The position numbers were made by a program, and so were the translations under genes. 64,000 nt of DNA. It comes from a virus. Below the pieces are notes generated by a model. The model had not been told where the DNA came from. It made no database searches and saw only the letters and a program-made list of their open reading frames with translations. Of the stretch, positions 44,199-52,540 are shown one piece after another. Position 1 is the first letter of the stretch. Each line of letters starts with the position of its first letter. The DNA lies in IMG/VR virus record IMGVR_UViG_3300037111_000040, positions 1 through 64,000 of that record; one strand, written 5' to 3'.

Positions 44199-47100
44199 AT
44201 GAAGCGCCTGATTTTCCTACTGACGTTGCTCGCTCCAGTCTCGGTGCTCGCTCAGGCCACGGGATCGATTCAGGGATACTGCGACCTTGGTGGAAGGCAA
44301 GCCACAATCGCCGGACTCAACTCATCCAATTATCTTCAAGGGGTGATTCCACACTGTCTGGTCAGCGTTTACCTCACGGACTCCCAGACTCTCGCGACGA
44401 TCTACAAGGACGGAAGCAACACACCGCTTACGAACCCGTTCAAAGCAACGACCATCTCTTCGACACAGACCGGGCACTGGCTCTTCTATGCGGCGCAGGG
44501 ACAAGGGTACGACGTTCAATTGAGCGGCGGTGATCCACCTCTCGTATTCCCATCCCCGGTTGTGGCGGCTGTTGATGTATTTGCGAGTGGCGGTACCGGA
44601 AGCGGAGGCTCATGCTCACCGAACATCATCTCCGCTGGATGCACAGGTGGAACCTCAGCGCCAGCCGCACAAGCCAACATTCTCGGAAATCCAGCGGCGG
44701 GTCTCTACGCCATCAATTGCACCAGCAGTTCTGACTGTCAGCCGTCTATTCTCTCCTCCGCTTTCTTCTACCAGACCGTCCAAGCGAACACCGTTTCCCT
44801 CACGCAAGAGGCTAGGCTGAATCTCAAGTCCGGTTCCAACTCCACGGTAAGCTGCGTGGATAATCCCGGAAATAATTCGACTGACTGCACGATTAGCTCA
44901 ACTGGTGGAAGCAGCGTCACTTGGCCTACATCGGGAGACTTAGTGATTTCTAACGGAACGAATACACCTACTGGCCTTCCCCCTCAACTGAACCTTTGTC
45001 TCGGCGGCGTCGCGGGGCCGGTATTCGGGGATATGCCGTGCGTGTCATCGCTGACGACTACGGGGTCGAGTGGCGCGGCTGCCTTTAACACGGTGACCGG
45101 CGCGCTCAACATCCCGGTCTATTCGAGTGGCGGTGGCGGAGGATTTACACCGGCTAATGGAATCTTTGCCGGAGACAGCGTCAACGATGACGACGGCAAC
45201 GTGATCGAGCCGACGTTCGCCTTGACGGGATTCACCTGCACGGGCGTCACATGCACGGTGACAAACAGCGGGACGAACAACCTGGCCGCTGGCGATTGGG
45301 TCAACATGCGTTTCTCGAGCGCGTGGACTTCGACCTTCTCAGCACCGACCGACATCAGCTATTCGACCGGATACACGCTTTTCAAGGTACTCTCATCCGG
45401 CTTAAGTTCTACGCAGTTTGAGTTTAGTTTTGCCAGCAGCGGCACCTGCGCCTCAACCTGCGGCGTCGCAGCCAAGGCCACATATAACCTGCCTTTCAAC
45501 ACGGCGAATCTGGCCGGGCTCAGTGGCAAACTGACGCCCTATGTGGTGATCCCGAATCCTGTCACCGAGCAGGCGCTCAACACCTATTACTCGACAATCC
45601 TGCACCCACTGAGCGAGGCAGTGACCGGCCAGCCGACCTACTTCATCTTCGGGCAGTTAGAAAACGATGCCTTTGCGAACGGTTGCACTTCGGCTGCAAC
45701 GATCGAGGCGGCGCTTAACTCCCTATGGGCGCAGGTACATGCCGACAGCAGCTCTGTGGTGGTCTGGAGCACGAACGCCGTCAACCTCGGGCAGACCGGC
45801 CTCGGAATCTGCTCCTCCGGCTACCAGACCCTGATCGCGCTGGAACAATGGCTGCCTCTTCAAGGGAAGAGCGCGGCGAATCAGGCCAGCGGCCAGTATT
45901 GGGATGGTTTCGTTGATGTGGCTCGTGTGGTCAACGATCCGGGAAACTCATCGCTCGTTGCCGGGAACGGCGGATTCGGCCCAGGCGGCGTGAACCTGGC
46001 AGCGGCAAAGATTGCGAATGTGCTGCTCTCCGGCGTGAGTGACCCACTGGACAAGCGGAGCGACTATTTTGGTTCGGCACCCGGAGTCGCGGGGGTAGGT
46101 AACGGCTTCATGCAGATTCCCACTTACGATTCTGTTTACACCTATCAGTGGTTTTCCGCTTCATCGGGAAGCACTCTCGGCTCGCAGATCATGTCTTTGG
46201 GAACGCTATTCGGTTACCAACACCTGACTGTCAATTCAGATTCTCCAAGTACCTTCAACAGCACTAGTCAAAACAGCGGAAATCATTATCCTTCTACGGC
46301 GGCGGTGCAGGAGCCTAGCAGTTCGAGCACGGCTTTTAACTACCCCATTTTTGGCGTGTTAGGCCCGAATATGCCAACGGGCTATTCGATAAAGGAAGAC
46401 CTCGGAAGAGATAATGCAACGAACGATGTGTTGAGAATGCAATTTTATTATGCCGGTGCGGGCTCAGCTTCTAACTATGCGATTTTCGGATTGTATGGGG
46501 CAAACGGTTTATCGATTGATGGCAACGGAAATGTTGTCATTCAAGGGCTTTCTCCTTCGACAAGCCCCATATGCCCACACGGAACGGGCGGCGCGTTGAC
46601 AACCAGCGGCTGTGCTAGCGGTAGCTCGGGCCTCTCGGGCATGACAGCGACTCAGGTTGGTGTCGCTGGGTCATCCAGCACGATCACCAGCAGCAAGGCT
46701 ATTGCGGGTACTGGAGCGGGGCTGGCATCGGGACCAACTTCTGCAACTGTGGCAGGAGATGTAGTGACCTACGTGGACACGGCTGGCACACAGCAGGATA
46801 GCAGCACGCTCCTCTCATCGCTGGCTCCGAAGGCCAGTCCGACCTTCACAGGAACGCCAGCGGCCCCTACTGCGACGGGGGGCACGAACACGACGCAGCT
46901 TGCTACCACGGCTTTCGTGCAGGCGGCTATTGCGGCGGCTGGGACGGGCGCAGGCATCGTCACCTATTCGGGACCGGCGCTGACTTTTACCGGGACGTTG
47001 TACTTCCCTATCGGCGGCGGCGGCTTGTCGAGTGCGACCGAGACGAATGTGGATATCGATTCACCGGCAGCGGTCACCATTCAGAACATGACGGTGCAAT

Positions 47101-48197
47101 TGAGCACCGCCCCGGGCGTTGGAAATTCGATTGCTTTCACTTGGCGCAAGAATGCTTCGAGCCAAACGCTCACCTGTACGATCAGCGGAGCATCGGCTAC
47201 TTCATGCTCAGACACGACGCACAGCTTTACGACGGCATCGCTCGATTTGCTGGATATTCAAGTTGTCACGACCGGGACCGTCGTTGGCACGCCAACTGTG
47301 GTTATGGCTGCGCAGGTTGGCGTTGCGGCCACCACGACGACTGCTTTTTCTGCCATCTCCAGCGGGACCAATACGAGTGCTGCGATGGCCGTTGGTTCGG
47401 GAGCCAGCTTAGCTCCGAGCGGCACGGGGACAGTCAGCGCAAACCAACTGAATGGCGTCCCTTTCTGCACCGGCTTTACACCGACGACGGGGCAGAATTT
47501 GCAGTACACGACCGCAAGCACCCCGAATCCTTGCTATACGGCGGCTGCTGGAGGAGGATCAACTGTAGTAGCCGCGCCGCCATACATCGAAATTGGCTCG
47601 ACATTCTACGACCCCGATATGTTTGCTGTGACAAAACCAGTGATATGCGCTTCTCAGGTTTTCATTGGCACAGGGCCGACTTGCACAAACGGAACGAACG
47701 GGAATGTCGTTCTTAGCTCTACTGCGGCGACTACAAATTATTGGTCGAAAATTTCATTGAGCAGTTCTATCGATATTGATTTCAGGCAACTGTGCGCCGC
47801 TGTTGGCACGAATAATTGCAATGGAGGAATCTGGATTCACGACAACACAAATGGGTTAGTGTGGTCACTGAGTTGGCAGCAGGGAAATGCCTCTCTCTCT
47901 ACAGCAACGCTCCAAATCGGAGAATATAACTGTACAAGCACTTGCCCCGGATCGGTTGCCCCATCTTTTGTGAGTAGTGTTGTTTATCAGGGCGCGGAGT
48001 GGTTTGGATCAAGTATTCATTTGAAGCTGTCTGTTTCAGGGACGATTCTCTCATATCTGGTTTCGACTGACGGAGGCGCTACCTATCAGACGATAGGAAC
48101 TCAGACAGTCGGCACAATTGATTTTGGGGGGATTGCTTTCTATAGCGGATTAGGGACCATTGCAGAGATAAATCTGCTTAGCACGAGCGTCATCTGA
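44199..48197 (+). CDS. Large secreted-type tail fibre with SGNH-like domain
   Basis: ATG after AAGGAGGTAAC; 1332 residues. A Sec-type signal peptide opens it (MKRLIFLLTLLAPVSVLAQA). Near 321-333 FAGDSVNDDDG, near 485 FGQLEND and near 596 GPGGVNLAAAK match blocks I, III and V of SGNH hydrolases, although the block V Asp/His are not clear. Near 880-910 the fibre-type repeat SPTFTGTPAAPTATGGTN with ATTAFVQAA occurs. The last 170 residues look like a lectin-type jelly roll. Probably binds and trims surface glycans. A signal peptide on a fibre is unusual. Confidence 0.65.
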   Translation: MKRLIFLLTLLAPVSVLAQATGSIQGYCDLGGRQATIAGLNSSNYLQGVIPHCLVSVYLTDSQTLATIYKDGSNTPLTNPFKATTISSTQTGHWLFYAAQGQGYDVQLSGGDPPLVFPSPVVAAVDVFASGGTGSGGSCSPNIISAGCTGGTSAPAAQANILGNPAAGLYAINCTSSSDCQPSILSSAFFYQTVQANTVSLTQEARLNLKSGSNSTVSCVDNPGNNSTDCTISSTGGSSVTWPTSGDLVISNGTNTPTGLPPQLNLCLGGVAGPVFGDMPCVSSLTTTGSSGAAAFNTVTGALNIPVYSSGGGGGFTPANGIFAGDSVNDDDGNVIEPTFALTGFTCTGVTCTVTNSGTNNLAAGDWVNMRFSSAWTSTFSAPTDISYSTGYTLFKVLSSGLSSTQFEFSFASSGTCASTCGVAAKATYNLPFNTANLAGLSGKLTPYVVIPNPVTEQALNTYYSTILHPLSEAVTGQPTYFIFGQLENDAFANGCTSAATIEAALNSLWAQVHADSSSVVVWSTNAVNLGQTGLGICSSGYQTLIALEQWLPLQGKSAANQASGQYWDGFVDVARVVNDPGNSSLVAGNGGFGPGGVNLAAAKIANVLLSGVSDPLDKRSDYFGSAPGVAGVGNGFMQIPTYDSVYTYQWFSASSGSTLGSQIMSLGTLFGYQHLTVNSDSPSTFNSTSQNSGNHYPSTAAVQEPSSSSTAFNYPIFGVLGPNMPTGYSIKEDLGRDNATNDVLRMQFYYAGAGSASNYAIFGLYGANGLSIDGNGNVVIQGLSPSTSPICPHGTGGALTTSGCASGSSGLSGMTATQVGVAGSSSTITSSKAIAGTGAGLASGPTSATVAGDVVTYVDTAGTQQDSSTLLSSLAPKASPTFTGTPAAPTATGGTNTTQLATTAFVQAAIAAAGTGAGIVTYSGPALTFTGTLYFPIGGGGLSSATETNVDIDSPAAVTIQNMTVQLSTAPGVGNSIAFTWRKNASSQTLTCTISGASATSCSDTTHSFTTASLDLLDIQVVTTGTVVGTPTVVMAAQVGVAATTTTAFSAISSGTNTSAAMAVGSGASLAPSGTGTVSANQLNGVPFCTGFTPTTGQNLQYTTASTPNPCYTAAAGGGSTVVAAPPYIEIGSTFYDPDMFAVTKPVICASQVFIGTGPTCTNGTNGNVVLSSTAATTNYWSKISLSSSIDIDFRQLCAAVGTNNCNGGIWIHDNTNGLVWSLSWQQGNASLSTATLQIGEYNCTSTCPGSVAPSFVSSVVYQGAEWFGSSIHLKLSVSGTILSYLVSTDGGATYQTIGTQTVGTIDFGGIAFYSGLGTIAEINLLSTSVI

Positions 48198-48212: not shown

Positions 48213-48578
48213 ATGAAACGCATTTTCGCGGCACTCTCGGTTCTGGCTCTTGCGGCCCCGCTTGCCGTGTGCCAGGCGAAGGTGACGACGTGCGAAGTGA
48301 ATCTGACGTGGGATGCGCCGCTAAGTTCTCCTGATCCCGTTTCCAGTTATGACGCCTTCCGCGCTCCAAGCGGAGGAACTTCATATCAGCAACTCAATAC
48401 AACAGCGATCACGTCAACTACCTATAGCGATCTGACAGTTCAAGCATCTACCTACGACTACATTGTCGAGAGTGTCGATGCGAGTGGAGTGACAAGCGCG
48501 CCTTCGAACGTGGCTAGTGTCGTAGTTCCAGCCTTACCGCCATCACCGTCTAAACCAACCGTAAAGTTCAACCCGTAG
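48213..48578 (+). CDS. Exported fibronectin type III-like protein
   Basis: ATG after AAGGAGACAC; 121 residues. Signal peptide MKRIFAALSVLALAAPLAVC, then one FN3-like domain (VNLTWDAP, SYDAFRAPSGG, YDYIVESVDASGVTSAPSN). Export and an adhesion module suggest a surface role during infection or lysogeny. Confidence 0.65.
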   Translation: MKRIFAALSVLALAAPLAVCQAKVTTCEVNLTWDAPLSSPDPVSSYDAFRAPSGGTSYQQLNTTAITSTTYSDLTVQASTYDYIVESVDASGVTSAPSNVASVVVPALPPSPSKPTVKFNP

Positions 48579-48589
48579 GGAGGAGTTCT

Positions 48590-49126
48590 ATGAAGTCGAT
48601 AAATCTGAAGTTCGCATCATTGCTGATTTTGCTTTTCGCAGCCGCTGGCTGTAAGCCACAGGCCCCGGTCTCGCCACCGCCATCGGCAACTGTAAATTGG
48701 ACTGCTCTCCCATGCCCGACTGGATATAGCTGCGGCTACATCGTCAGTTCGGCCACATGCACGAGCGCCACAGTATGCCCAACACCATCCAGCAGTGGAC
48801 CGTACACGCCAAAACAGACGGCGAGTTCCCCGCTCACCACAAACACGTACACCGACACAGCGCCACCGACCGGAGTATACGAAGCCTACACGGTACAGTT
48901 TGTGGAGACGCCAACTGGAGGACAACCAGCAACCGGAGCACCTTCTCCTGCGTCAGCACCCGTGTTGATTGCGCTCTATCCGGGCACGCCGGGACAGCCT
49001 TCGGTAACATCTGTGGCCGAGCTTGCACCTCCGCTTTTTCCAGACGCTTCGGAACAGCAAGTCGCAAGCAACTCGATTCCTGTTGCGGTACGTCCAACAG
49101 TTAAGATTTCATACCCACGTCTGTAA
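48590..49126 (+). CDS. Lipoprotein with FN3-like region
   Basis: ATG after GGGAGGAGTTCT; 178 residues. A lipoprotein signal ends FAAAGC, with the Cys as lipid anchor. The body has FN3-like strands (ATVNWTALPCPTGYSCGYIV, YEAYTVQFVETPTG). Possibly anchored to the outer membrane of the host. Confidence 0.65.
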   Translation: MKSINLKFASLLILLFAAAGCKPQAPVSPPPSATVNWTALPCPTGYSCGYIVSSATCTSATVCPTPSSSGPYTPKQTASSPLTTNTYTDTAPPTGVYEAYTVQFVETPTGGQPATGAPSPASAPVLIALYPGTPGQPSVTSVAELAPPLFPDASEQQVASNSIPVAVRPTVKISYPRL

Positions 49127-49167: not shown

Positions 49168-49506
49168 GTGGGCACGACAAGCGAGGCAATCGTGGCAGAA
49201 CCTAAAACAAATAGCGAAGGAATGGCTGAGTGGATGAAGTGGGGCATATCCGCGCTCGTTTCAGCCCTCACCACGACTGCTCTGGGAGCGTGGTATATGT
49301 CAGCCACGCTCACCACTATAAACGACCATCTGGATCGCCTCGACAGCGGAGAGAAGGCAATCATGGAGCAACATGCGGCGCTCTCGGACCAGATTTATAC
49401 GATCAACGAGGAGCAGAATATCGTGATCACACTGCTGCATGATGAGCATACAAGCAGGATTCCGCTTCCGAGTCCTTCGAAGCACGATGGGTTTTCCGAC
49501 CGTTAG
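49168..49506 (+). CDS. Single-helix membrane protein, possible lysis accessory
   Basis: GTG after AAAGGTAAGAAA; 112 residues. One membrane helix at about 26-48 (ISALVSALTTTALGAWYMSA), then a heptad-rich helix (INDHLDRLDSGEKAIMEQHA). The layout resembles small holin- or spanin-like proteins next to lysins. Function inferred from place. Confidence 0.5.
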   Translation: MGTTSEAIVAEPKTNSEGMAEWMKWGISALVSALTTTALGAWYMSATLTTINDHLDRLDSGEKAIMEQHAALSDQIYTINEEQNIVITLLHDEHTSRIPLPSPSKHDGFSDR

Positions 49507-49520
49507 GAAAGGTGAAAGAG

Positions 49521-50849
49521 ATGGGAAACTGGATTCAGCTACTTGCTCAATTGGTCGCCAGCATCCTTGAACGCGCATTTGGAACCAAACCAAATACCTT
49601 GCTGACAATCACAGGGATCATAGGTGGCGTCGCTGCCATTTTAGCGGCGCTTCCAAGTTCGGTGATTCCGGCCAAGTACCAACCATACCTCATAAGCGCC
49701 GCTGGGTTTTTCTCCGTCTTGGCTGGCGTGCTCGGCTACGGGAAGGGCACCACGCCGCCTCCACTCGCGCCGCCGTTGAACCAGACGAACGTGAAGCCGC
49801 TGTCGCCGCGATTCAACTGTCATCCATACGTGAAGCGCCTTGCCGCTGGAGTCCCGACCGCGTCTGGTGCGTGGGAAGTTGATGACCTTTGCGCTGCCTA
49901 CGAGTGGCCGACCGGTCTGAAAGGGGGAGGAACCATCGGGATCGTGGAGCTTGGCGGCGGGTGGGTGCAATCGGACATTGACGCCTACTTCCAGTCCATC
50001 GACCAGCCATCGCCATCTCTGACAGATGTGTCGGTCGATGGAACGAAGAATTCTCCGGGTAACGACAATGATATGGAGGTTGCTCTCGATATTGAGGTCG
50101 CGGGTGCCGCCTACTTCGTGGCCACCGGCAAGCCAGCCACCATTCGCGTGTACTGGTCACAGGACATTGCTTCGGCGGTCGCCAAGGCTTCCAAGGATGG
50201 CTGCGCCGTTTGCTCTATCTCGTGGGGCGCTGACGAAGCCGCATGGGGATCGGAAGCTTGCAAGCAAATGGATGCTGCAGCAAAGGCCGCGACCGATGCC
50301 GGGATGGTAGTGTTTGCCGCTTCCGGAGACAATGATTCAAGCGACGGCGGTCGCAATGCCGCCAACGTGGATTGCCCAGCGTCATGCCCGCACGTGGTGG
50401 GATGCGGCGGCACGTCGAAGACAGCAAGCAGCGAGACGGTTTGGAATAACAACCCCGGCAAAACGGACGGCTCTGGAACTGGCGGCGGATATTCCACCAT
50501 TTTCCCGGCTCAGGCTTGGCAAGTAGACATCCCTCCAGCGCCCAAAGGTCTGGGCCGCATGGTCCCCGATCTTGCCGCCAACGCCGATCCCGATACTGGG
50601 TACCTAATTTTTCAAGGGGGGCAGCAACAGATTGTTGGAGGAACGAGCGCCGTGGCACCGTTGTACGCTGGCCTGTTCGCGGCGTGGGGTAGGAAGGTTG
50701 GATTCATCTCGACAAGGCTTTGGGATCATCCACCCTCTTTCACGCTCATTACCACGGGCGGTAACGGCCAGTACGAAGCTGGGCCGAAGCCGAGCCCATG
50801 CACTGGTCTGGGTGTGCCAATCGGGAAGAAACTTTCACAGATTTTTTGA
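49521..50849 (+). CDS. Sedolisin-like (S53) protease with N-terminal membrane helices
   Basis: ATG after AAAGGTGAAAGAG; 442 residues. Two hydrophobic helices at about 28-46 and 57-74 resemble a holin hairpin and are followed by a Pro-rich linker. The C-terminal 340 residues are a sedolisin catalytic domain: Glu186 and Asp190 (DMEVALD), the oxyanion Asp270 (ASGD) and Ser376 (GGTSAVAP), with PDLAANADPDTGY of the family. The usual long pro-domain is absent. A membrane-tethered acid protease beside a lysin suggests a role in lysis or envelope entry. Confidence 0.75.
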   Translation: MGNWIQLLAQLVASILERAFGTKPNTLLTITGIIGGVAAILAALPSSVIPAKYQPYLISAAGFFSVLAGVLGYGKGTTPPPLAPPLNQTNVKPLSPRFNCHPYVKRLAAGVPTASGAWEVDDLCAAYEWPTGLKGGGTIGIVELGGGWVQSDIDAYFQSIDQPSPSLTDVSVDGTKNSPGNDNDMEVALDIEVAGAAYFVATGKPATIRVYWSQDIASAVAKASKDGCAVCSISWGADEAAWGSEACKQMDAAAKAATDAGMVVFAASGDNDSSDGGRNAANVDCPASCPHVVGCGGTSKTASSETVWNNNPGKTDGSGTGGGYSTIFPAQAWQVDIPPAPKGLGRMVPDLAANADPDTGYLIFQGGQQQIVGGTSAVAPLYAGLFAAWGRKVGFISTRLWDHPPSFTLITTGGNGQYEAGPKPSPCTGLGVPIGKKLSQIF

Positions 50850-50857
50850 GGAGCATT

Positions 50858-51466
50858 ATGAATCGTAGAATGTTTTTGCAACTCTCAGGAACCGGTGCAG
50901 CGGTCGCGGTGGCGGCACCGACCGTATTGCTGACGACTGGATGCTCGACAGCGTGGATCACGACGGTCATCGACGATATACCGGTCGTAATCAACATCGT
51001 GAACAGCGTGGTGTCGGTGATCGCTGAGGCAACCAGCAATGGGGGCCTGCCTGCAAGCGTCGCAGCGGCTCTCACGACGGCCATGAACGTTGCGATTGCC
51101 TCGCTCAACGCGTTCCAAGACGCGGCCAACGCCTACAACGCGAACAAGTCGCAGGGCAACCTAAACGCGCTGATTGCGGCACTGACGAAGGTACAGAGCG
51201 ACGTACAGGGCGTCATCGCAACTCTCCCGGCTGGATCAGTATCGCCATCCATCGTCGCCGTGATCGTAGCGGCTTTGGGAACGGCCATCTTGACTCTGTC
51301 CAGCATTCAGGCGCTCATTCCCGGCGCAGCGCCAGCAGTGGTGACGGCGAGGGCTGTGGCAGCGGTCGCGACAGGCAAGGTCGAACCGCCTAATGCGGCC
51401 ACTTTGAAGTCCAGCTTCAACGCGGTTCTCGGGCTTCACGGATACCAGAAATTCCAATTGCAATAA
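50858..51466 (+). CDS. Tat-type lipoprotein-like helical protein
   Basis: ATG after GAGGAGCATT; 202 residues. The N-terminus NRRMFLQLSG is a twin-arginine signal, and LTTGCS is a lipobox. The body is Ala/Val-rich and helical, with hydrophobic stretches. A Tat-exported lipoprotein in a phage lysis region is very unusual. Function unknown. Confidence 0.65.
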   Translation: MNRRMFLQLSGTGAAVAVAAPTVLLTTGCSTAWITTVIDDIPVVINIVNSVVSVIAEATSNGGLPASVAAALTTAMNVAIASLNAFQDAANAYNANKSQGNLNALIAALTKVQSDVQGVIATLPAGSVSPSIVAVIVAALGTAILTLSSIQALIPGAAPAVVTARAVAAVATGKVEPPNAATLKSSFNAVLGLHGYQKFQLQ

Positions 51467-51480
51467 GATCGAGGCGAACG

Positions 51481-52080
51481 ATGAAACAAGGATTGATGAC
51501 CAAGATGCTTTGGGCCGGGATCGCGTTGCTGGCAATTTCGACAGTCGCCAGCGCGCAATCCGGCCTCGTTTTTTCGAGTGCCGCCGAGGCTACGGCTCTC
51601 GACTACCAGAAGTCATGGACAGCCGCCACGCATACAACAGAATCACTTGACCTGATCGATTGGGGAGTACAGAAAGGGAACAGCCTTTCAGTAGAAGGCC
51701 ACGAAATTACGGCGTCGCCATTCAACGCATACTTCGGAGGTGTTCGGTACTCGCCCGATCTCTCGGCGTTATTCGCGAAGACAAACCTGCCCGCAGATTC
51801 GTTCCAAATCTTCATCCAAGGAGCGGGCGGACTGGCGACATTCACAGCGAATAACCAAATCGCTTTACTCTTCGGCGGTGGAGCGTCCTATCGGATCACT
51901 CCGAATCTTCAGTGGTCCACGCTCGACATACACTTCATGCGTGTCGGATCGAATAACGCAATCGAGATGACGAGCGGGCTCGCGTACTATTTCAACCCGC
52001 AGGCAACGAAGAGCATGGCGCTTCGAAGGATGATTTTGCACAGGGCGATGATCAAGGCCGCGACAGCAGGGATAAAGTAG
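51481..52080 (+). CDS. Exported, outer-membrane-like protein
   Basis: ATG preceded by GAGGCGAACG; 199 residues. Signal peptide ending STVASAQS. Alternating hydrophobic/polar strands with aromatic ends (FNAYFGGVRYSPDLSALF, SYRITPNLQWSTLDIHFMRV, SGLAYYF) suggest a small beta-barrel, although the basic tail after the last strand argues against a normal outer-membrane C-terminus. Role unknown. Confidence 0.55.
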   Translation: MKQGLMTKMLWAGIALLAISTVASAQSGLVFSSAAEATALDYQKSWTAATHTTESLDLIDWGVQKGNSLSVEGHEITASPFNAYFGGVRYSPDLSALFAKTNLPADSFQIFIQGAGGLATFTANNQIALLFGGGASYRITPNLQWSTLDIHFMRVGSNNAIEMTSGLAYYFNPQATKSMALRRMILHRAMIKAATAGIK

Positions 52081-52087
52081 GTGTCGG

Positions 52088-52540
52088 ATGACTCTTCAGG
52101 ATCAGGTCGTAGGTGCTATCTGTGCATGGAAGGAAGCGCGCGGCGGTGGCGCGCAAGGGATGCATTCGATCCTGAACGTGCTCGTGAACCGCGCGGCCAA
52201 AGCGAAGAGCAGCGTCTACGAGGAGGCGTTGCGGCCTGAGCAGTTTTCGAGCATGACCACACCCGGCGATAAGGAACTTGGAATCGGCCCAAACGCGCTC
52301 AACGCTCCAGACTGGAGTGCCTTCATCACCTCCCTGTCGCTGGCCGCTGACATCTCCGCAGGGGTGCTTCCAGATATCACAGGTGGCAGCACCCTCTACT
52401 ACAACCCAAAAGGCATCCGGACGACGGCAACCTTCACACTTCCAAGTGGCACCGTGGTGCCGTTCCCGGAGGGCTGGAATCCTGCGGTCGTGACTTACCG
52501 GTGCGAGATCGCTGGGCAGTTATTTTTCACGGAGAAGTAG
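52088..52540 (+). CDS. SleB/hydrolase_2-type cell wall hydrolase (endolysin)
   Basis: ATG at 52088; 150 residues without signal peptide. The opening QVVGAICAWKEARGGGAQGM and HSILNVLVNRA match the cell-wall hydrolase SleB/CwlJ family, with the catalytic Glu in KEARG. It likely cleaves peptidoglycan and needs a partner to reach it, fitting the membrane proteins upstream. Confidence 0.75.
   Translation: MTLQDQVVGAICAWKEARGGGAQGMHSILNVLVNRAAKAKSSVYEEALRPEQFSSMTTPGDKELGIGPNALNAPDWSAFITSLSLAADISAGVLPDITGGSTLYYNPKGIRTTATFTLPSGTVVPFPEGWNPAVVTYRCEIAGQLFFTEK

Follow-up and report, generated by a model that had tools for sequence, protein, structure and literature searches.

How might a tailed phage employ a sedolisin-type protease that is joined to a holin-like membrane hairpin? 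This question is raised by a gene on the plus strand at positions 49521–50849 of a 64,000-nucleotide stretch of DNA (henceforth the window), which constitutes the first 64 kb of the 121.7-kb virus record IMGVR_UViG_3300037111_000040, from a soil phage whose terminase, portal and major head genes are divergent. The 442-residue product of this gene combines an N-terminal membrane-associated segment with an S53 sedolisin catalytic domain.

The fusion gene and its sedolisin domain

The reading frame is open from a GTG at 49512 to the stop codon at 50847–50849 and offers two candidate starts, this GTG and the ATG at 49521; the latter is more likely the start, with TTAGGAAAGG directly upstream. Catalytic residues are numbered here from the ATG and phmmer coordinates from the GTG. 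The initial annotation had raised the prospect of a frameshift artificially joining two genes. Such a frameshift, or a chimera, is ruled out by three assemblies that are identical over 21 kb (they may stem from one project) and by each of the halves having its own homologues, among them a stand-alone hairpin gene; the frame is thus confirmed as real and not an assembly artifact. An AlphaFold2 model of the protein shows an amphipathic helix (residues 4–20) followed by two hairpin helices (26–43 and 51–71), which together make up the holin-like part (49521–49739, plus strand). This is followed by a proline-rich linker (GKGTTPPPLAPPLNQ; 49740–49784) and the catalytic domain (49821–50846). The confidence of the model (pLDDT) exceeds 90 for most of the sedolisin domain and is about 60 for the hairpin.

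A phmmer search against the PDB matched the C-terminal ~325 residues, at 116–443, to the whole mature domain of kumamolisin (1t1e; E = 5.6e-61), and Foldseek searches with the model recovered kumamolisin (1t1e; E = 2.8e-31) and 1sio (template-modeling score 0.85 on the target; root-mean-square deviation 2.3) as the top matches, which together rule out a chance resemblance. The phage domain has the fold common to kumamolisin and kumamolisin-As (MEROPS S53), to which it is 40–42% identical in structural alignment, and is a divergent member of S53. The kumamolisin-type Glu-Asp-Asp-Ser set is complete and comprises Glu186 (codon at 50076–50078, in the motif NDMEVALDI aligned to kumamolisin), Asp190 (50088–50090), the oxyanion Asp270 (50328–50330) and the nucleophile Ser376 (50646–50648, in the motif GGTSAVAP), with all four unchanged in 22 of 22 aligned relatives. 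In contrast to kumamolisin, the phage protein possesses neither a pro-domain nor a secretion signal and has the membrane hairpin at its N-terminus: the stretch ahead of the catalytic domain is only about 115 residues long and is accounted for by the hairpin and the linker. Thus, the sedolisin fold, the complete catalytic set (with Ser376 correctly numbered) and the missing pro-domain, which the initial annotation had read from the sequence alone, all hold up.

Separate counterparts of the two halves in related phages

A stand-alone homologue of the hairpin is encoded by a 93-residue gene (L127:5001–5282; L numbers denote individual loci) with 62–64% identity in a related phage with a 134-kb record. 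This gene directly follows the endolysin, whose end its start overlaps (5001 versus 5004), and its product ends in a proline-rich tail similar to the linker of the window protein, with hydropathy peaks at 25–49 and 55–73 in both versions. In the window, the hairpin lies about 1.2 kb upstream of the endolysin. Its occurrence as a separate gene in the lysis module of a relative bears out the earlier description of a holin-like hairpin. Like the two-transmembrane (class II type) phage holins, it is a small hairpin encoded beside lysis genes; unlike them, the window version carries a 340-residue enzyme, and pore formation by it is putative.

The sedolisin likewise has an unfused counterpart in its nearest phage relative (L014; 73% identity), whose gene starts with ATG AAC CTG AAA CCG. 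At 49785, immediately 3' of the linker, the window has ACG AAC GTG AAG CCG, placing the fusion point at 49785–49787 on the plus strand, where ACG stands in place of the L014 ATG. With the hairpin separate in L127 and the sedolisin unfused in L014, the window gene is thus a lysis-module membrane protein joined to a phage sedolisin. Production of a free sedolisin from an internal start appears unlikely: the ancestral start is now ACG, and an internal GTG at 49791 has no ribosome-binding site.

The charges flanking the hairpin (Arg18 and Lys23 before it, a single Lys in the loop, and Lys75 with a basic stretch after it) favor a topology with both ends inside. Because of these charges, and because the unfused relatives have no export signal, the protease is probably kept on the cytoplasmic side until triggering; this makes tethering in the periplasm doubtful.

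A clade of sedolisins without pro-domains

An alignment search of IMG/VR yielded 33 loci, 24 of which, from about 17 distinct phages, group with the window sedolisin, while the remaining ones carry an N-terminal extension of 160–185 residues that matches a pro-domain in size and place. Searches of GTDB genomes recovered nine contigs at 55–70% identity, with the next matches at 46% or less; those of the latter that we examined have 140–280 residues ahead of the match unless a contig end intervenes. Of 162 relatives, the best 80 were retained in the genome search, which relied on two short motifs and is hence an undercount. In a tree of 81 rows, all the pro-domain-less sequences fall on one side of a branch with a Shimodaira–Hasegawa-like approximate likelihood ratio (SH-aLRT) support of 99. 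The prosegment is missing throughout this clade of 26 rows, which takes in the phage contigs along with a few bacterial genomes, and relatives outside it have about 140–280 residues ahead of the match. Thus, the loss of the pro-domain, which the initial annotation had noted, is a trait of the whole clade, not of this fusion, and predates the joining of the hairpin.

Clade members outside the window population have short N-terminal tails of 1–63 residues (the exceptions being L046, the bacterial fusions described below and the L024 group, in which the start is uncertain), and neither a hairpin nor, as judged by eye, a signal peptide was found in them. The initial annotation had suggested looking for the same fusion in other phages; in viral contigs the hairpin was found only in the window and L127 populations, in the latter on its own, and the hairpin–sedolisin fusion thus seems private to the window phage population. 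This private occurrence, the free hairpin of L127 and the flexible proline-rich linker at the junction could also be read as signs of a holin regulator, with the sedolisin as a cytoplasmic brake on the hairpin that cleaves itself off via the linker and so times the holin. Since the clade consists mostly of unfused sedolisins, this would be at most a secondary role, and we consider it improbable as the primary one.

The phages of the clade differ in kind, as indicated by a head–tail connector and terminase in L008, a tail sheath in L028 and a major head protein in L031. Identification of the sedolisin contigs as phages rests on such PHROGs matches; the terminase profile PF03237 was uninformative as a check, matching 2 of 23. 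The nearest cellular sedolisins in the 81-row tree are acidobacterial. Acidobacteriota were not adopted as the host, the window terminase being matched in 1 of 396 genomes of this phylum (E = 2e-14). Two acidobacterial chromosomal members of the clade (L045 and L048) share common neighbors, UbiD- and FtsZ-like by eye, and may be where the phage gene came from. Four alphaproteobacterial members carry a serine carboxypeptidase (S10) domain ahead of the sedolisin (by a Pfam match on one of them). These proteins (L050–L053, including L052:3920–6841 from Roseiarcus fermentans and L051 from Lichenibacterium minor) are about 950 residues long, combine S10 with a pro-domain-less sedolisin and have no evident signal peptide. 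The second viral group (L036–L044), with the pro-domain-sized extension, is 30–37% identical to the window domain; one of its members, L039, had no match among cultured phage records.

These distributions bear on whether the gene is simply an accessory (moron) gene acquired from acidophilic soil bacteria, serving protein turnover or nutrient gain without a role in lysis. Sedolisins with a pro-domain abound in soil bacteria, Acidobacteriota included, and viral versions with pro-domain-sized extensions exist, both in keeping with such an origin. However, cells seldom encode members of the pro-domain-less clade (1 of 297 Acidobacteriota genomes at E ≤ 1e-100), which recurs in phages, and the gene is linked to the lysis module. 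On balance, we regard this explanation as highly improbable.

Unrelated proteases in the equivalent position

The L127 phage parallels the window gene by gene: it has a fibre (with an SGNH domain assigned by eye), an FnIII protein, a lipoprotein, a small coiled-coil/transmembrane protein, the endolysin, the hairpin and a lipoprotein. No sedolisin was found in its whole 134-kb record. Instead, 3' of the lipoprotein and two genes on from the hairpin, it encodes a papain-family protease (Pfam Peptidase_C1, E = 2e-7; xylellain-like, 3ois, E = 3e-25). The same papain (60–71% identity) occurs in four more phages (L137–L140), where it adjoins a small transmembrane protein and, in most of them, also a lipoprotein and a hydrolase (Hydrolase_2 or GH108-type). 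In a sixth relative (L133), the corresponding place is taken by a protein (L133:4610–6133) that is papain-like by motif and has an intein-like insert (LAGLIDADG_3) at the conserved GGH|C motif. The insert could hold back activation until it is spliced out. Homologous lipoproteins occur in L127, L133, L137, L139 and the window, with that of the window matching weakly (26–27 bits).

Like the window sedolisin, these papain-family enzymes are proteases in the lysis module of a related phage, but they differ entirely in fold and mechanism (Cys-His versus Glu-Asp-Ser). No record was found to have both: none of 19 sedolisin records has the papain, and none of 6 records with the papain position has the sedolisin; many records being fragments, this mutual exclusion is suggestive only. 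Further, in the cultured phage MMB025 of the acidophile Alicyclobacillus, the endolysin itself combines an N-terminal papain domain with an Rv2525c glycoside hydrolase and PG_binding_1. Together, these observations suggest that unrelated proteases fill an equivalent lysis position in sister phages, a wider pattern that the initial annotation missed.

The lysis neighborhood of the window

In the window, all on the plus strand, the fusion gene stands between a spanin-like gene and an endolysin, in agreement with the lysis cluster proposed at the outset. Upstream lie a tail-fibre-like protein with a Sec signal peptide at its start (44199–48197), an exported FnIII-like protein with a signal peptide (48213–48578), a lipoprotein with FnIII-like repeats recognized by eye (48590–49126) and an i-spanin-like protein with one N-terminal transmembrane helix and a coiled coil (49168–49506; a weak match to PHROG 214, Rz-like spanin, E = 0.012). 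Just 9 nucleotides 3' of the fusion gene is a Tat-like lipoprotein (50858–51466), the one homologous to those of the papain phages. It is followed by a protein with a Sec signal peptide, putatively outer-membrane-barrel-like by eye (51481–52080), and the endolysin (52088–52540; PHROG endolysin, E = 4e-6; Pfam Hydrolase_2, E = 0.002, below the cut-off). A lipoprotein structure model was of low confidence (pLDDT 58) and mainly helical, and was not used.

Sec-signal-led fibre-like or SGNH-hydrolase proteins recur in L138:4033–6078, L139:3691–5574, L137:1672–6234 and L016:9785–11854, adjoining lipoproteins and exported FnIII proteins. Export is not expected of virion fibres, and these phages may display or secrete them.

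Settings of other phage sedolisins

Two other phage sedolisins also lie among lysis-type genes. In L015, a spanin-like coiled-coil gene overlaps a lipoprotein gene by 4 nucleotides and is followed by a Lipase_3 gene and then the sedolisin; the Lipase_3 gene (L015:9321–9998) lies directly upstream of the sedolisin, placing a lipase and a protease in one lysis cassette. The order in L028 is a lipoprotein, a transmembrane protein, an SLT transglycosylase and then the sedolisin. L046 presents a second, independent fusion: its N-terminal domain corresponds to a separate gene of L138 (36% identity over 69 residues), which sits between a lipoprotein and an endolysin. Glycosyltransferase-like genes lie within about 3 kb upstream of the sedolisins of L016, L022, L024, L027 and L031 (family 3) and of L018/L033 and L019 (family 8), a recurrence that may point to a functional link.

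The initial annotation had spoken of a new lysis or entry factor. The setting supports the former, and we found no evidence for the latter. A virion- or tail-associated protease that helps the phage cross the envelope during entry, or that acts in the processing of tail proteins, would nevertheless fit the fibre-like genes near the sedolisin in the window (44199), L016, L020 and L029, and the location of the L008/L033 gene between terminase and head–tail connector genes. A membrane hairpin, however, is unusual in virion proteins, and no virion-attachment domain was seen on the unfused copies; we consider such a role rather unlikely.

A proposed function in lysis

We propose, with roughly even confidence, that the protein is a tailed-phage protease acting at the lysis stage, held on the cytoplasmic side and switched on or released at holin triggering, with a papain in the equivalent position elsewhere. 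The sedolisin-type endopeptidase would be made without a pro-domain or signal peptide and be placed by the holin-like hairpin on the inner membrane, most likely at its cytoplasmic face. Sedolisins are acid proteases whose prosegments have a role in folding and are removed when the pH is low (PMC6278154). At the near-neutral pH of the cytoplasm, the bare S53 enzyme would be nearly idle and, therefore, an inhibitory pro-domain would not be needed. Upon triggering of the holin and collapse of the proton gradient, the protease would meet the acidic periplasm or medium and might then cut envelope proteins, with those tethering the outer membrane to peptidoglycan being candidates. This proteolysis would complete the work of the endolysin and the spanin-like proteins.

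Several observations weigh against this proposal. The hairpin had no significant match to a curated holin family in Pfam or PHROGs. In about seven phages (L018/L033, L019, L022, L024, L027, L029 and L031), the sedolisin has glycosyltransferase or tail genes as neighbors, with no recognizable lysis cassette. In a crude neighbor count, small transmembrane genes near sedolisins were not enriched (14/134 versus 26/233), and lipoproteins were only weakly so (7/134 versus 3/233; p = 0.03, exploratory). The papain phages indicate that acid activity is no general need at the protease position. Finally, two Asp residues near the C-terminus, equivalent to the calcium ligands of kumamolisin, are present at both positions in 18 of 22 relatives and are both missing in the single subclade formed by the window protein (Leu409 and Ser425), L014 and L046. 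Given this loss, the activity and stability of the protease cannot be assumed. As a separate observation, two of the three members of this subclade (window 50076–50849, L014 and L046) are N-terminal fusions.

The same topological features would also suit a cytoplasmic protease for host takeover or counter-defense, with the hairpin merely anchoring it near an inner-membrane target: the hairpin charges suggest that the catalytic domain faces the cytoplasm, unfused clade members have no signal peptide, and the neighbors vary, as is the case with accessory genes. Against this stand the fact that S53 enzymes are acid proteases (PMC6278154), the position of the gene between the spanin-like gene and the endolysin, its exchange with a papain in lysis modules and the papain domain on an endolysin. 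We thus consider host takeover unlikely.

Relation to known lysis systems and implications

We found no relatives of the sedolisin or the hairpin from cultured phages in 50,697 records, and a literature search turned up no publication on sedolisins of phages or on papain-type proteases in phage lysis. The best BFVD matches are sedolisin-fold proteins of the soil giant viruses Barrevirus, Homavirus, Terrestrivirus and Sylvanvirus, which are also virus-encoded, but longer (521–972 residues) and from viruses of eukaryotes. None of the BFVD matches was a tailed-phage sedolisin, the phage matches being subtilisin-type or weak.

Phage lysis as described involves pore proteins, peptidoglycan hydrolases, membrane-fusing spanins and lipid esterases. 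The spanins (Rz/Rz1) and LysB esterases have the same general job as that proposed here, acting on the outer layers after peptidoglycan is cut; however, spanins act by fusing membranes and LysB as an esterase, and neither is a protease, unlike the window enzyme. Our observations suggest that proteases are an overlooked part of host lysis by some phages. More tentatively, a dedicated protease might be a regular lysis component in certain phages of soil bacteria and acidophiles, with pro-domain-less sedolisins, papain-type and intein-split papain-like enzymes being interchangeable and sometimes fused to a holin-like protein or an endolysin; the window version would be membrane-held and switched on by a drop in pH, and such proteases would form an effector class beside endolysins, spanins and LysB.

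With few genes involved and an activity that is easy to assay, the idea is directly testable, and were the function shown, this lysis arrangement would be a new class of lysis effector. If true, it would explain how an acid protease manages without the inhibitory pro-domain its relatives need, and would hint at which outer-layer proteins hold such cells together. A protease as a regular, exchangeable part of the lysis apparatus would thus add a step to the known picture of phage lysis.
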